Shown here in pieces: positions 2,055-61,281 of a DNA stretch of 64,000 bases (its first letter is position 1; every line of letters starts with the position of its first letter). Both the position numbers and the translations under genes were made by a program. The stretch comes from Halobellus sp. LT62 (lineage in GTDB: Archaea; Halobacteriota; Halobacteria; Halobacteriales; Haloferacaceae). The DNA lies in NCBI RefSeq assembly GCF_037031285.1, contig NZ_JAYEZO010000001.1:1054001-1118000 (forward strand). The letters run 5' to 3'. Below the pieces are notes generated by a model. It saw only the letters and a program-made list of their open reading frames with translations. It did not search any database and was not told the DNA's origin.

Positions 2055-3092
2055 TCATACCTCCCCCACCACTTCTTGCCCGACTTCATCCGTTTCACTC
2101 TCGTACTCCTCGTGGTCGTAGTACAGATGACACGCGGCCTCGTGACCTTCCGATTCGACGAGATGTGGCGTCTTTTCGCAGATATCCATCCGCTCCGGAC
2201 AACGGTCCCGGAATCGGCACCCTTCACCCATATCGATCGGATCTCGTGGCGATCCCTCGATCTTCGTCCGTTCGCGGTCGTGATCCAGACTGTGTGACGG
2301 AATTGCCTGAATCAGAGCCTGCGAGTACGGATGCTTCGGGCTTTCGAGAAGGTCGCGCGTCTCCGATCGTTCGACAATCCGTCCGAGGTACATCACGTTG
2401 ATGATATCACAAACGTGCGAGACTGTCGAGAGGTCGTGAGAGATATAAATAAGCGCGAGGTCACGCTTCTCCCGCAGTTCCGAGAGCAGGGTCAAGACGG
2501 ACGCTTGCGTAGACACGTCGAGCATCGAGGCGGGTTCATCGGCAAGCAGGATTTTCGGCTCGACGATCAGGGCTCTCGCGATCGCCACGCGCTGTAGCTC
2601 CCCCCCACTGAGCTGATCGGGGACTCGATCCAAGTACTGATCCGGGGGATTCAGCTCCACCTCCTTCAGCGTGTTATGTATCCGCTCTTCTTTATTCCCC
2701 ATATCGTGAATCCCCAGCTGTTCTTCCAGCGATTCCTTAATCGTCATCTTCGGATTCAGCGTATTGAACGGGTCCTGGAAGATAATCTGGACGTCACCCC
2801 GATAACTCTTCAACTCGCTTTTGTCGAACTCCGCCATATCCTTGCCCTTATATCGTATTCTCCCCGCTGTCGGGGCCTGCAATCCGATTAAGGTTTCTAA
2901 CAGCGTGGATTTTCCGCAGCCACTTTCGCCGATGATTCCGATTGATTCGTTCTCGTGGAGCGTGAATGAGACGTCGTCTACTGCTTGTATCTGTTCGCGA
3001 TCTCTCCGCAGCAGTGTATCGACGATACTGGTTGATTGGTCGAAATACCGTTTCAAGTTCTCGACTTCGAGGATGGGGCGAGCAGTCGACAT
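2055..3092 (-). CDS. ABC transporter ATPase, DppF/OppF type
   Basis: 345 residues. Nucleotide-binding subunit that powers import with its partner at 3092-4129. Walker A is GESGCGKSTLLETLIG, the signature loop QLSGGELQRVAIARAL and Walker B ILLADEPASMLDV. The C-terminal oligopeptide-transporter extension has the conserved cysteines in CRFRDRCPERMDIC. The ATG overlaps the previous stop by one base (TAATG), so translation of the two ATPases is probably coupled. The sequence is full length for the family, and nothing suggests inactivation. Confidence 0.92.
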   Translation of the reverse strand: MSTARPILEVENLKRYFDQSTSIVDTLLRRDREQIQAVDDVSFTLHENESIGIIGESGCGKSTLLETLIGLQAPTAGRIRYKGKDMAEFDKSELKSYRGDVQIIFQDPFNTLNPKMTIKESLEEQLGIHDMGNKEERIHNTLKEVELNPPDQYLDRVPDQLSGGELQRVAIARALIVEPKILLADEPASMLDVSTQASVLTLLSELREKRDLALIYISHDLSTVSHVCDIINVMYLGRIVERSETRDLLESPKHPYSQALIQAIPSHSLDHDRERTKIEGSPRDPIDMGEGCRFRDRCPERMDICEKTPHLVESEGHEAACHLYYDHEEYESETDEVGQEVVGEV

Positions 3093-4129
3093 TACAGACT
3101 ACCTCCCTGTTTCTGCTGGTCTTGCACAGCCTGCTCGCCAGCGTATTCGTCCCGGTACACCTCATCGAGTCTGAAACAGGCTGCGGTATGCAAGTCACTG
3201 TCGCCAATCTCTTCAGGGGACGGAGCAACCTCAGCGCACTCCTCCGTCGCCCACGGACATCTTTCGGCGAAGGTACAGTAGTCGACCTCGCCCATCGTTT
3301 TCGGCGGGGTGCCCTTGACCGTCCCGAGTTCCTTGTCGGGATTGTGAACGTCCGGAAACGCCTGCTTCAGTTGGATCGTGTAGGGATGACGGGGGTTGGC
3401 TAAGACATTGTTCGTGTATCCGTACTCTGCAACCTGTCCCGAGTGCATTATCGCCAATTTGTTACAGTTTTCGTAAATAATGCTCATATCGTGGGTGATC
3501 AACATCATACTCGTATCCAGATCCTCCCGCACGTTATCCAGATACTTGAACAATTGATCCTGCATAATCACGTCCAGTGCCGTGGTCGGTTCATCGGCCA
3601 CGATCAGGTCCGGATCGAGGAACAGAGCCATTGCAATCACAGCTCGCTGTTGCATCCCGCCGGAGAACTGATGGGGATAATCCGAGATTCTGGCCTTCGA
3701 TAGGCCGACGATCTCGAACATCTCGGCGAGACGCTCGCTGGCCTCGTTTGGCGACATATCCGTGTGGATACTCGCGAGCTTTTTCGCCTGTTTTTCAATC
3801 CGAAGAAGGGGATCAAGATTGTTCATCGAACTCTGAGGGATGAACGAGATCTTTTTCCACCGAATTCGTTCGTTCATCTCTTCGGTGGAGTAATCCTGGA
3901 TCTCTTCTCCGTTGACGCGAATTGTGCCGGACGTTACCTGTCCGTTGTCGTCGAGCGCACCCATAACCGCACGGGCGATCGTACTCTTTCCGCACCCTGA
4001 TTCTCCGACCAGCCCGAAATACTCACCTTCGTCAATTGTAAAGGAGGCGTCGGAGACGGCGGTCACGGAGCCTCTATCTGTACTGTACTGGATCGTGAGG
4101 TCAGACACATCGAGTACTGGATTTGACAT
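3092..4129 (-). CDS. ABC transporter ATPase, DppD/OppD type
   Basis: 345 residues. Walker A GESGCGKSTIARAVMG, signature QFSGGMQQRAVIAMAL, Walker B LIVADEPTTALDV and the C-terminal cysteine motif CTFAERCPW identify the D-type ATPase of a peptide/nickel importer. Haloarchaeal and bacterial members work as a D/F heterodimer, and the F partner follows with a one-base overlap. The start lies 5 bases after the stop of the permease gene upstream, so the genes form one operon. Confidence 0.92.
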   Translation of the reverse strand: MSNPVLDVSDLTIQYSTDRGSVTAVSDASFTIDEGEYFGLVGESGCGKSTIARAVMGALDDNGQVTSGTIRVNGEEIQDYSTEEMNERIRWKKISFIPQSSMNNLDPLLRIEKQAKKLASIHTDMSPNEASERLAEMFEIVGLSKARISDYPHQFSGGMQQRAVIAMALFLDPDLIVADEPTTALDVIMQDQLFKYLDNVREDLDTSMMLITHDMSIIYENCNKLAIMHSGQVAEYGYTNNVLANPRHPYTIQLKQAFPDVHNPDKELGTVKGTPPKTMGEVDYCTFAERCPWATEECAEVAPSPEEIGDSDLHTAACFRLDEVYRDEYAGEQAVQDQQKQGGSL

Positions 4130-4134
4130 AGTAA

Positions 4135-5040
4135 CTACCCCTGTGCGATCGCTGCTTCGCTATCTTCAGATTCCAGTTCGCGTCCGAGCAGGAACGTCGA
4201 GACGACCGTAAAGGCGATGAGGAGTCCTGGCGTCATAGACCACGCGAGCTGTCTGGCCATAAATCCGGAATCGTAGGCGTTCCGCAGCATAACCCCCCAC
4301 GAGGGCAAGAACGGGTTAGATGCGCCCAGGAATGCGAGACTCGCCTGGAGAATGATAGAAAGCCCGATCGCAATAGCGAAAAAGAGGAACGCCATCGGTG
4401 CGACGTTTGGCAGAATATGGCGAACGATGATATGCGGCGTACTCGCGCCGGTCGCTTGGGCCGTCTTGACGAACTGTCGGTTTTTGATTTGGAGGACTTG
4501 TGAGCGGAGGACACGGGCATTGCCTCGCCAGAGAATTATTCCGATAATGAGAATCGACGTGTAAAATCCAATGCCGAAGATAGCCGACATCACAAGTGCG
4601 AACGGGATGAACGGCATACTGTATGCCATATCTGTGAACCGCATCAGCAGACTGTCCACGCGGCCGCCGACGTAGCCGGCGGTAATTCCGATTGTCATAC
4701 CGATTGTAATAGCCATACCTCCGCCCAAGAGACCAGCAATAACTGTTGGTCTCGCCCCGATGATGACGCGGGATAAGACGTCGTTGCCCAGTGAAGTCGT
4801 TCCGAGAGGATGAGCCAGGGACGGCTGGGCAGTCTTGATGATGTCTCCACCCCTGATGATCGTTTCTTGGTAACCATAGGGCGCGATGTAGGGACCAACG
4901 AATCCGAGCGCGATCACCGAACAGAGGAAAATCGACGGAATGAGCGTTATTTTTTGCTCGGCCATTCTGGATAGGCCGGAAACTAAATTCCGGAGGAGGA
5001 AACTGTCCTCATAGTTGAATGGTAAGGTACGCCTAGCCAT
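4135..5040 (-). CDS. ABC transporter permease, DppC/OppC type
   Basis: 301 residues. Second membrane subunit. The N-terminal OppC_N-like segment with its first membrane helix (ITLIPSIFLCSVIALGFVG) is followed by five more helices and an EAA loop around TGASTPHIIVRHILPN. The stretch ASLAFLGASNP is typical of DppC. It is the first gene of the permease/ATPase operon. The matching binding-protein gene (5587-7428) lies upstream on the same strand, but a 383-bp inverted-repeat element separates them, which may have uncoupled the permease genes from the binding-protein promoter. Confidence 0.92.
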   Translation of the reverse strand: MARRTLPFNYEDSFLLRNLVSGLSRMAEQKITLIPSIFLCSVIALGFVGPYIAPYGYQETIIRGGDIIKTAQPSLAHPLGTTSLGNDVLSRVIIGARPTVIAGLLGGGMAITIGMTIGITAGYVGGRVDSLLMRFTDMAYSMPFIPFALVMSAIFGIGFYTSILIIGIILWRGNARVLRSQVLQIKNRQFVKTAQATGASTPHIIVRHILPNVAPMAFLFFAIAIGLSIILQASLAFLGASNPFLPSWGVMLRNAYDSGFMARQLAWSMTPGLLIAFTVVSTFLLGRELESEDSEAAIAQG

Positions 5041-5088
5041 AGTCGCTCAATGAGAACCTTCGTAAATAATCCTTTGGTCTGGCGCAAG

Positions 5089-5471
5089 GGTAGTGTTTAG
5101 TTAGGAGTGGATTCGGTGTGAACGGGGGAGACAAGCCCGTGGAAGCCCCCGCGGTCTCGACTCGATGGGCTCGCTGTCGTTCGAAAGACGCAGAGCACCC
5201 TTCGTGATGTGGCCAGAACGCGGAGCGTTCTGGCTGCCTGCCGGACGTCATCCGGCACTGACGAGAGAGCTTTGCTCTCTCGAACCACGGTCCTTGTCGC
5301 TCACTGCGTTCGCGCCTGCGGTCTCTACTCACGGGCGTGAAGCGCCCGTTCGTATCCGCGAGGCGGCAACGCGGCCTCGTGGCTTACGTCGCCCGTCTTC
5401 GTCGAGACGGCGGCCCCTTCTATTCCCGCCTCAGCAGTTTTTCGGCCGCTATCGCGTAACTAAACACAACC
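5089..5471. mobile_element. MITE-like element, 383 bp, with terminal inverted repeats and 8-bp target duplication
   Basis: The left end GGTAGTGTTTAGTTA (5089-5103) is the reverse complement of the right end (5457-5471) with one mismatch. The direct repeat GGCGCAAG flanks it at 5081-5088 and 5472-5479. The interior codes for nothing plausible but is full of short hairpins, such as CCAGAACGCGGAGCGTTCTGG around 5211-5231 and GAGAGCTTTGCTCTC around 5269. It lies between the binding-protein gene and the permease genes of the importer. An 8-bp duplication is usual for several DDE families such as IS5 and IS1595; I cannot assign the parental element. Confidence 0.8.
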
Positions 5472-5586
5472 GGCGCAAGAGTGAAGGAGGAAATATTACG
5501 TTCGATCTCCGATCGGCGCGCACGATTGCCGCGGAGGCGATGGTGAAAATCTACAAGAAGAGTCCCTGCCGGTGAGCAAAGGTAGC

Positions 5587-7428
5587 TCAGGGCTCTTGAT
5601 ACACCACTTCTCCGCCCTCCTCAGTGAGACAGGAGAACTCATCCGGCGAGGGGCGGCCGCCCAGCTCAAACACCGGACTGAGATCGGCATCCGGGGGGTA
5701 ATGCAGGTTGCCGTTGTCGTCCCATCCCCACCCGGCGTCGCTGAGAACTTGCCTTGCGCCCTCGATATCACCGGTCGGGTCTTCCGTGAACTCCGGAATC
5801 ATCTCGTCAGGCGCGAGGTAAGGGTAGGAATCAGCGTAGATCTCCGAGTGAAGGATCGGTTCAGACATCCCATCATACGCCAGCTGGTTGTGCCGCTGGC
5901 GGTTCATCGCTTTCCCGATCGCATGGCGGAACTCGGGGAACATACAGGGCCCCCTCGAACAGTTGGGGTAAATAACGACAGGCGCCCATCCATTGGTCGC
6001 GGAGAACTCTCCCCAGTCGTTCTCATTAATTCGCTCTCTCGCGTTGCTGGACGCATCTGTCGCGACATCCAAGTCCTCGGCCAAGAACGCCTGCATCGCT
6101 GCCTCCGCGCCCTCGTAGCCAACGTGGATGATTTCGTGCTCCGGAGACCACCCGTCCTCCCCGTACATCGGATGGCCTTCGTGCGGTGAGACACGCACCG
6201 CTTGGCTCGAATTGAAATTCTCTATTTGCCAGAGTCCCGACCCAATGATCTCATCCGGGTGCGCCTCCCCGGGATTTTCCATCGCACCCGCCTCTCTCCA
6301 AGAGTCGCTGTGAAGGATTCCCCAGTTGGGGAGGCGAGCCGTTTGGAGTAAGATATCGGGGTCCTCGCCCGTGAATCTCACCGTCTTATCGTCGACGACC
6401 TGTATTTCGTCGTACTGTGGCTCTCTCGCCAGTGGATACGAGCCAGGGTTCCCCAGAATGAGGTCGAAGGTGAACTTGACGTCTTCCGCCGTAATCTCGT
6501 CTCCGTTGTGGAAGGTCGCGTCTTTGAGCGTGACAGTCACCTCTCGACCTTCGTTTGCCTCTTCGACCGATTCAGCGAGAACATTCATCAGCTCGAAGTC
6601 CTCGTTGTACATCGTCAAGGGTTGGTGAATCCCGTGTGACCAGAACATAATATGTGGGGCCGCCGTGAGGGTCAGGAAGTTTCTCGAAGAGATCACCGTG
6701 GGATTGAGACTGCTGGTGAACGAGTCCCCCGAGGTGGGTTCCGACTGCCGCCACATATGCGTATTCGCGTACGTGAGACCCCACGATCCCAACCCATTGA
6801 GATTCACAGTACTGGAATTATATGTGCCGAAGTTCGGATATTTGAGTAGCGGAATCGAGAAGTACTCGTTACTTCTGATCTCCATCGCCCGATTGATCAA
6901 CTCCTGTCGTTCTTCGGACCGACCCTCAACGCTCTGTTGGTAGACCGTGTTTGTGTATTCACAGTTTGGATAGTCAGAGGGGTTGTCGGATCCGGTGTTA
7001 CCGACACGGTCTATCCCGAATCGATGTAGCATCTCATCCGGGTCGAGGCGGAACGGATTTGTACCGTGAATCATAAGTTCCATATCACTTTCACGTTCCC
7101 CTGACGCCATTTGAGAGATCTGCGTTGGGTAACTCTTTCCCTGTGCATTCAACGAAACACCGAGTTCAGACAAGGTATCGGTCGCCGTCGGGATGATTGA
7201 TTCGAAGACTCCGGTAACGCCTGGCACTCCGGTCCAGTAACCGATATTGACCTCTTCGACTGGTTCACCGAGATTTTCCGAACTCCCACCAGACCCATCT
7301 CCGCCGGACCCACCGTCACCGGATCCATTACCGCCACATCCCGCCAACCCGCCGATCGCTCCCGTGCCGCCAATTATTTTGATAAAATTCCGACGCTGCT
7401 GAGTGTATTCCTTGTTATCCCTTGGCAT
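5587..7428 (-). CDS. extracellular solute-binding protein, family 5 (DppA/OppA type), Tat lipoprotein
   Basis: 613 residues. The N-terminus has a twin-arginine motif (QQRRNFIKIIGG), a hydrophobic stretch and the lipobox GGLAGC, followed by a Gly/Ser/Asp-rich linker. The protein should therefore be folded, exported by Tat and lipid-anchored outside the cell, as usual in haloarchaea. The body has family-5 features, for instance NVLAESVEEANEGREVTVTL and the FHNGDEITAEDVKFTFD block (residues about 290-330). It delivers the ligand to the permeases at 983-5040. A TATA-like box lies 33 bases upstream of the ATG. The ligand is unknown; the neighbouring CoA-ligase/beta-oxidation genes leave open an acid or peptide nutrient. 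Confidence 0.9.
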   Translation of the reverse strand: MPRDNKEYTQQRRNFIKIIGGTGAIGGLAGCGGNGSGDGGSGGDGSGGSSENLGEPVEEVNIGYWTGVPGVTGVFESIIPTATDTLSELGVSLNAQGKSYPTQISQMASGERESDMELMIHGTNPFRLDPDEMLHRFGIDRVGNTGSDNPSDYPNCEYTNTVYQQSVEGRSEERQELINRAMEIRSNEYFSIPLLKYPNFGTYNSSTVNLNGLGSWGLTYANTHMWRQSEPTSGDSFTSSLNPTVISSRNFLTLTAAPHIMFWSHGIHQPLTMYNEDFELMNVLAESVEEANEGREVTVTLKDATFHNGDEITAEDVKFTFDLILGNPGSYPLAREPQYDEIQVVDDKTVRFTGEDPDILLQTARLPNWGILHSDSWREAGAMENPGEAHPDEIIGSGLWQIENFNSSQAVRVSPHEGHPMYGEDGWSPEHEIIHVGYEGAEAAMQAFLAEDLDVATDASSNARERINENDWGEFSATNGWAPVVIYPNCSRGPCMFPEFRHAIGKAMNRQRHNQLAYDGMSEPILHSEIYADSYPYLAPDEMIPEFTEDPTGDIEGARQVLSDAGWGWDDNGNLHYPPDADLSPVFELGGRPSPDEFSCLTEEGGEVVYQEP

Positions 7429-7464: not shown

Positions 7465-7614
7465 TGTCTCTATCGGGGTTGTGTTCAGCTACGCAGTTGG
7501 CCGTTTGACCTCCGCTGAGTGGAATAACGGAGTCGCGTACCCGACCCGCGAACAGGGAGCCGAGTTGCGGGACTTTCACAGCTTCTCTTCGAGACTCGCC
7601 GCACTACGTTTTCG

Positions 7615-7677
7615 GTCGTGTTTGCACGTCATCACTCACTCGATCGGGCGACAGCGTGCGATCGATTGCACCGCTAC
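7615..7677 (-). repeat. dispersed palindromic repeat, copy E (degenerate, reversed)
   Basis: Read on the minus strand it starts GTAGCGG and keeps the blocks CGATCGCACGCTGTCG and CGATCGAGTGAGTGATGACG seen in the copy at 9388, but it is about 15 bp shorter. It lies between the binding-protein gene and the CoA-ligase gene. Assigned by eye. Confidence 0.55.
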
Positions 7678-9387: not shown

Positions 9388-9465
9388 GTAGCGTTTGCAA
9401 CTGATGACACATCGATCGCACGACAGCGTGCGATCGAGTGAGTGGGTGAAGACTTGTAACGCTAC
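9388..9465 (+). repeat. dispersed palindromic repeat, copy B (best preserved)
   Basis: 78 bp: GTAGCGTTTGCAACTGA at the left, TTGTAACGCTAC at the right, and a perfect central stem GATCGCAC-GACA-GCGTGCGATC. It lies upstream of the enoyl-CoA hydratase gene; long reading frames that start inside it are artefacts. Confidence 0.75.
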
Positions 9466-15723: not shown

Positions 15724-15799
15724 GTGGCGTTTGCAACTGACTGCTCATCCGATCGCACGAAAGCGTGCGATCGAGTGAATGAAGACTGGCGTACGCTAC
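15724..15799 (+). repeat. dispersed palindromic repeat, copy C
   Basis: 76 bp: GTGGCGTTTGCAACTGA at the left, GCGTACGCTAC at the right, and central stem GATCGCAC-GAAA-GCGTGCGATC. It lies in the 379-base gap between the divergent acyl-CoA dehydrogenase and SDR genes, which otherwise shows no gene. Confidence 0.72.
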
Positions 15800-61022: not shown

Positions 61023-61281
61023 CGTAACTCTTCCATTTACCTGAATTGAGGCGCTAAGGCCCCTTCCTCAACGAGCGAGCGGAGCGAGCGAGTAGGGGGG
61101 GATACAGCGTTCACGAGAGCGAAGCTCTCGTGCGCGAACGAGACGCCGGATTCCCCGCCGACGTTCGGCCTCGACAACGGGGAAACTGCTGGCATCGCGG
61201 GGCTGACACTCAATGGCGGATACGGGCACTTTACACGCGAGTACGGTCTCGCCTGCGACGCGCTGACTGAAGTCGACGTCG

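Follow-up and report, generated by a model that had tools for sequence, protein, structure and literature searches.

The available text of PMC7986276 describes the IS6 family as one that makes 8-bp target repeats, with halobacterial clades of 700 to 750 bp and two known MITEs, of 227 and 336 bp, in ISfinder. A haloarchaeal IS6-family MITE, MITEHarch3, is named in the part of PMC6807381 available to us, in which one group also argues that the archaeal members should be taken out of the IS6/IS26 family. Smaller palindromic repeats have been described in several hosts. In Haloquadratum walsbyi, the repeats SMR-A and SMR-B measure 80 to 110 bp, have terminal inverted repeats, are defined by sequence in one species and insert into palindromes without target duplication by a mobilizer given as unknown, and SMR-A enters the near-terminal palindromes of other elements (PMC3119063, available portions). 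Bacterial REP dimers are dispersed tandem hairpins whose stems vary within families, and some of them lie inside longer palindromes; REPs of the CGTC type carry an unpaired CGTC tag, 8- to 9-bp stems starting with A-T pairs, loops of 4 to 5 bases and a CCA tail, and in the accessible text of the same source archaea occur in two reference titles only (PMC3733652). Mitochondrial double-hairpin elements, or repetitive hairpin elements, are tandem mobile hairpins of organelles whose stems differ by complementary substitutions (PMC2800124, available part).

The locus studied here lies in a stretch of 64,000 nucleotides of the genome of Halobellus sp. LT62 (called the window below, with positions counted from its first letter). 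It is best read as an ordinary MITE carrying nested palindromic repeats of the REP or SMR kind, and we consider it quite probable that an IS6-type element of this sort, entered at its palindrome tip by hairpin units without target duplication, explains the whole locus. A preliminary description of the same DNA had recognized the MITE, and that part holds; its proposal that the hairpins end or process transcripts and so change subunit stoichiometry gained nothing from our analysis, and the hairpins as a separate and much wider phenomenon had escaped it.

The MITE in the importer operon and its IS6-type partner

The element is 383 bp long (5089 to 5471) and has no transposase gene; the ORFs of 99 and 136 amino acids that cross it overrun its ends. 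It sits in a 546-bp gap 3' of an SBP_bac_5 gene and, as described before, parts this binding-protein gene from the permease and ATPase genes of an oligopeptide/nickel-type ABC importer. The five genes run in the order SBP_bac_5, permease, two ATPases and second permease, all on the minus strand, so transcription reaches the element after the first gene. The features of the site are the following.

5081-5088, no strand: left copy of the 8-bp target duplication GGCGCAAG
5472-5479, no strand: right copy of the 8-bp target duplication GGCGCAAG
5089-5103, plus: left end of the MITE, terminal inverted repeat GGTAGTGTTTAGTTA
5457-5471, minus: right end of the MITE, terminal inverted repeat reading GGTTGTGTTTAGTTA on this strand
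5587-7428, minus: substrate-binding protein gene, SBP_bac_5 (family 5), upstream in the operon
4135-5040, minus: BPD_transp_1 permease gene, downstream of the element
2055-4129, minus: two ABC ATPase genes (3092-4129 and 2055-3092)
983-1972, minus: second BPD_transp_1 permease gene

The two target copies are identical, and the 15-bp ends (GGTAGTGTTTAGTTA against TAACTAAACACAACC) are complementary at 14 of 15 positions, in agreement with the preliminary description. Across 119 genomes of the family, the permease has no relative closer than 60% identity, so orthologous intergenic DNA for an empty-site comparison was absent.

The MITE reading is supported by copies scattered over the same genome and the genus that have paired ends and 8-bp duplications, and these contradict the lack of copies elsewhere that the preliminary description had named as evidence against it. 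The MITE end pattern, with at most one mismatch, has 15 matches in the 3.23-Mb genome, compared with 0 for the reversed pattern used as a control, and a whole-genome search with the element itself gave 28 matching pieces. Target repeats accompany paired ends at the window copy (8/8), at C2:696898-697113 (216 bp, 8/8) and at C1:1014664-1014770 (107 bp, 7/8); the other end pairs of the genome are without one (C1:1654135-1654313, 4/8; C1:1613, 4/8; C1:1940, 1/8; C1:410.6 kb, 4/8). Among the relatives, 31 of 60 genomes contain a match to the element. Paired ends were seen in 17 of 40 partly matching loci, 35 of which came from six relatives and 5 from the genome itself, and the remaining 23 had none. 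Eleven of the 17 end-paired copies are 213 to 216 bp long. Their target repeats agree at 8/8 positions in 11 copies, 7/8 in 3, 6/8 in 2 and 3/8 in 1, a distribution that slightly favors good target repeats in that, where several end pairings were available, the one with the best sum of end and target match was taken.

An IS with matching ends and 8-bp duplications, of the kind the preliminary description pointed to, exists in the genus. It is 697 bp long at L135 (ends GGTAGTGTTTAGTTTGGAGC and GGTCGTGTTTAGTTAAGGAT, target repeat 8/8) and 696 bp at L139 (matching ends, 8/8), and a further locus, L134, has a 7/8 repeat. Three others (L136, L151 and L153) have 8/8 repeats, but their ends deviate more from the pattern, and most of the remaining IS6/IS240-type transposase loci of the genus have poorer ends or no repeat. 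The ends GGTNNTGTTTAGTTA are common to the MITE and the 697-bp IS. The proteins of L135 and L139 belong to the IS6 family (185 and 179 bits to NCBIfam NF033587 versus a cut-off of 125), and the partner protein scores 30.3 to Pfam PF13610 (cut-off, 27). ISH6 was rejected as the partner, given 25.7 bits to the ISH6 model versus a cut-off of 240. With its length of about 700 bp, single transposase gene, GG-starting ends and 8-bp target repeats, the partner resembles archaeal IS6-type ISs; only degenerate copies were seen in the Halobellus sp. LT62 genome. No intact IS6-type transposase was seen in that genome, where the single PF13610 match carries a stop codon, and a frameshifted transposase remnant (L035) lies beside a MITE-type end.

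Judged by its sequence, the 383-bp element is an ordinary MITE that belongs to, or falls close to, a known kind, and as a finding the MITE is ordinary as well. Like the IS6-family haloarchaeal MITEs such as MITEHarch3, it is non-coding, a few hundred base pairs long and bounded by IS6-type ends and 8-bp target repeats (PMC7986276 and PMC6807381, as far as available); the likeness is drawn from descriptions, and the window copy is longer than those MITEs by two hairpin blocks. From the shared ends we infer that the 697-bp IS moves the MITE in trans. The anatomy, the copies and the target duplications show a MITE set in an 8-bp target between the binding-protein and permease genes; the transposition that put it there would have been the work of a transposase acting in this way. 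A sequence at 7477 to 7506, some 50 bp upstream of the gene for the binding protein, resembles the MITE right end (GGTTGTGTTCAGCTACGCAGTTGGCCG), with 3 mismatches to the end pattern, and may be what is left of an old MITE in the promoter region.

Nested palindromes in the MITE body

Alignment with the 216-bp copies covers three segments of the window element, 5089-5177, 5289-5323 and 5382-5471, and leaves two extra blocks, both hairpin arrays, at 5178-5288 and 5324-5381. Its parts, all on the plus strand, are as follows.

5089-5177, plus: left part common to the 213- to 216-bp copies (84% to L074)
5142-5161, plus: 5' arm of the core palindrome, GAAGCCCC box and covarying arm
5178-5288, plus: extra block A at the tip, a degenerate double-hairpin unit (CGTTCG ... 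CGAACCAC), absent from the 213- to 216-bp copies
5210-5260, plus: second hairpin pair (5212-5234 and 5239-5257), splitting the middle joint of the double-hairpin unit
5262-5282, plus: perfect hairpin CGAGAGAGC(TTT)GCTCTCTCG, second stem of the double-hairpin unit
5289-5323, plus: tip segment common to the 213- to 216-bp copies (89-91% to L074-L077)
5324-5381, plus: extra block B, a third hairpin pair (5331-5349 and about 5359-5379), absent from the 213- to 216-bp copies
5382-5471, plus: right part common to the 213- to 216-bp copies (76-82%)
5401-5420, plus: 3' arm of the core palindrome, covarying arm and CCCCTTC box

The hairpin-packed interior reported earlier is real, with the one caution that the first hairpin of the double-hairpin unit (5184 to 5202) has decayed in the window copy. 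Both strands fold far better than shuffled sequences, the minus strand as RNA with z = -6.08 and the plus strand as DNA with z = -6.06, and in each case 0 of 100 shuffles was as good. The middle joint of the unit is split into CGTGATG and ACGAG by the second hairpin pair, which stands alone elsewhere (L060 and L067).

The body of the MITE is a palindromic core with the boxes GGAAGCCCC, GTGCTTRCGTCG and CCCCTTCCATTCC and with covarying arms. Many related cores carry no MITE ends, and seven such places, with the core running from GGAAGCCCC to CCCCTTCCATTCC, were read in the Halobellus sp. LT62 genome. Four Halorubrum loci (L195, L222, L236 and L248) show the same core layout with other arms and with a double-hairpin unit at the tip. 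The core arms were paired at 12 or more of 14 positions in 75 of 155 candidates from the retrieved loci (68 of them distinct), compared with 13 of 465 when ends were exchanged. Within the order, 37 of 81 genomes contain the pattern of the core 3' half, with up to 76 matches in one genome; elsewhere in the phylum it was found in 0 of 311 genomes, and the controls gave 0. Rather than a shortened IS, the MITE body is this palindromic core, which is found order-wide without MITE ends as well.

The box GGAAGCCCC presumably resembles the right ends of haloarchaeal tnpB elements, and the idea of a TnpB guide-RNA relic was dropped. In the window copy, the C-runs of the core boxes at 5143-5149 and 5412-5418 (AAGCCCC and GCCCCTT) face each other unpaired while the outer AAG and CTT pair, and this mismatch is kept across the order. 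At L377 (1260 to 1546), the left box of the core occurs four times at 57-bp steps and is followed by one right half, an arrangement of tandem growth of a half palindrome.

Filled and empty sites could be compared in another genus (g13). When a 1.4-kb query was used, its flanks were found to adjoin in two genomes (G403 and G774), and its middle part was dispersed at many places. The gap between the flanking genes is 30 and 52 nt where empty (L410 and L411) and 360, 360, 332 and 285 nt in four cases filled with the core, and in a further copy (L420) a complete double-hairpin unit stands at the tip of the core. These empty, filled and unit-bearing states indicate that the core has been gained or lost at the site, and the unit likewise inside the core. 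No target duplication is visible when the unfilled MITE core, GCTGT-GGTCC, is compared with the filled one, in which CGTTCG..CGAACCAC stands between GCTGT and GGTCC. The tip of the palindrome would be where smaller tandem-hairpin units come in, leaving no visible target duplication. In the window copy these would be a double-hairpin unit (5178 to 5288) interrupted by the second pair (5210 to 5260), and the third pair (5324 to 5381).

Double-hairpin units across the order

In many genomes the unit has the frame GTCGTTCG, stem, CGTGATGACG, stem, CGAACCAC, with constant joints. Of 392 genomes of the order, 216 have the exact pattern, and 70 of 95 genera are represented (controls, 0); it was absent from the Halobellus sp. 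LT62 genome. In a scan of 84,980 genomes, the 80 listed of at least 120 matching stretches all lay in records with haloarchaeal titles. Annotated plasmids contributed one partial match only. Spread by virus was rejected as a candidate, with 0 exact matches in viral contigs.

Among 152 distinct copies, which represent the listed loci and not every match, perfect pairing was seen in 133 for the first stem and in 127 for the second; the 5' arms came in 44 and 45 versions, respectively. Copies were picked by exact joints, which partly builds in the constancy of the joints; stem pairing was not demanded by the pattern. In each of seven length classes, pairing in the stems (0.91 to 0.98) exceeded the maxima of 500 column shuffles per class (0.74 to 0.91). 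The frequent arms AGAGAGC, AAAGGCGC, AGACGCC and AAAATC recur at both stem positions. The most common loops have three bases, and the joint CG pairs inside the stems.

According to crude gene calls based on long acidic ORFs, 120 of 143 unit copies lie outside predicted genes (24 of these at the edge of the locus) and 23 overlap one. For the 96 units with two predicted neighbors, the neighboring genes are tandem in 44 cases, divergent in 29 and convergent in 23; such placement regardless of gene direction speaks against a terminator or promoter role. The flanks paired above the 95th percentile of exchanged flanks in only 28 of 167 units, indicating that many units are not at a recognizable palindrome tip. 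At L226 (1173 to 1229), where no core is present, CCACGGG and GTGACCCCGTGG make a short unrelated palindrome with a unit in its loop, and in Halorubrum coriense (L207, 6999 to 7143) two units stand 24 bp apart.

In the general sense of the term these units are REPs, being short palindromic repeats, mostly intergenic (120/143) and present in many copies (216/392 genomes). With bacterial REP dimers they share dispersed tandem hairpins, variable stems and insertion in longer palindromes (PMC3733652, available text). They fall outside the definition of CGTC-tagged REPs in that their loops mostly have three bases, their joint CG lies within the stems and their hosts are archaeal. Insertion in palindromes without target duplication is shared with the SMRs of H. 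walsbyi (PMC3119063, in the portions available); unlike SMRs (HqIRS40-43 and 55, compared by description only), the units have constant joints and varying stems and are order-wide. Tandem mobile hairpins with complementary stem substitutions also liken them to the mitochondrial double-hairpin elements (PMC2800124, available part), which differ in their organellar setting and in having no common joint. In the literature searched, including by the letters of the unit and the core (most subscription journals and ISfinder being outside its scope), no description of either was found. A Y1 transposase (RAYT/IS200-type) was rejected as the mobilizer of the units, as it was present in 7 of 12 unit-rich genomes versus 9 of 12 unit-free ones in a sample of 24 chosen genomes (12 rich in units and 12 without an exact unit match).

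Competing readings, meaning and other hairpins in the window

The perfect 8-bp duplications at 11 of the 17 end-paired copies, or at 13 to 14 when one mismatch is allowed, together with the 0 genomic matches of the reversed end pattern, make it extremely improbable that the paired ends and repeats are a coincidence within a locally born palindrome cluster, even though the region is dense in inverted repeats and many related cores lack such ends. An element that is rich in hairpins and lies between the first gene and the remainder of the operon could act as a transcription terminator or attenuator, lowering the output of permease and ATPases relative to that of the binding protein. However, the operon strand has no T-run of four or more within 5081 to 5479, where the sole TTTTT is on the other strand, and a scan with models of bacterial terminators gave nothing inside the element on the operon strand and 2 sites in 4900 to 5700, versus 0.8 expected. 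Such a role appears unlikely to us, and nothing was found in favor of the processing site that the preliminary description had offered along with it. Given the lack of a T-run on the operon strand, readthrough would be expected, and most likely the operon is little affected by the element.

A somewhat less remote alternative, which we nonetheless consider improbable, is that the hairpin array is a structured RNA, a processing or stability element that forms part of the operon transcript and is under selection at the RNA level, whose stems covary to maintain the fold. The strong covariation, the constant joints and the fold of the operon strand (z = -6.08) are consistent with this, as is the excess of G-T over A-C among the non-Watson-Crick pairs of the double-hairpin stems (21 versus 9 on the GTCGTTCG strand). 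The core arms, however, show the opposite bias (16 G-T versus 29 A-C), and with stems and arms in contradiction an RNA-strand signature from these pairs was rejected. The units do not lean toward transcribed sides (44 tandem, 29 divergent and 23 convergent), and Rfam gave no family match; a known RNA family was rejected with 0 matches in window positions 4900 to 5700 at E values up to 1 and only tRNAs in eight loci. With up to 76 core matches per genome and with empty sites, a spreading repeat fits better than a regulator.

We take the units to be spreading palindromes, by analogy best compared with REP dimers and with the Haloquadratum SMRs. On the model of REPs or SMRs, they would most likely spread in hairpin form, either single-stranded or extruded, with stems renewed while the joints are kept. 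More tentatively, and in our view with the odds somewhat against it, MITE, core and units may be parts of one order-wide system of nested palindromes in which structure is inherited and stem sequence is not, with constant joints, exchangeable arms, insertion at the tip without target duplication and transposons as carriers. If so, it would be a kind of repeat undescribed so far in archaea, and it would need a form of copying that preserves arm complementarity, for which template switching at extruded hairpins and whole-hairpin exchange are two examples.

The hairpins matter more than the MITE, as palindromic repeats of this type occur in more than half of the 392 sampled genomes of the order and account for much unannotated intergenic DNA in haloarchaea. 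Joints conserved base for base beside stems that have repeatedly changed on both strands amount to a natural experiment on the making and keeping of long hairpins, and they raise the concrete question of which process renews both arms together.

Other hairpins are found in the window as well. Those at 9412-9437 and 15750-15773 are near-identical and perfect, with the form (T)CGATCGCACG-loop-CGTGCGATCG(A), and are perhaps another dispersed hairpin; CAGCGTGCGATCGAT also occurs near 7653 to 7668, where the full partner is absent. The perfect hairpin CACGAGAGCGAAGCTCTCGTG at 61112 to 61132 has arms that resemble those of double-hairpin units. Altogether, the window contains 9 sites of perfect hairpins with arms of at least 9 (one site being counted twice), versus 0 to 3 in eight Markov controls.
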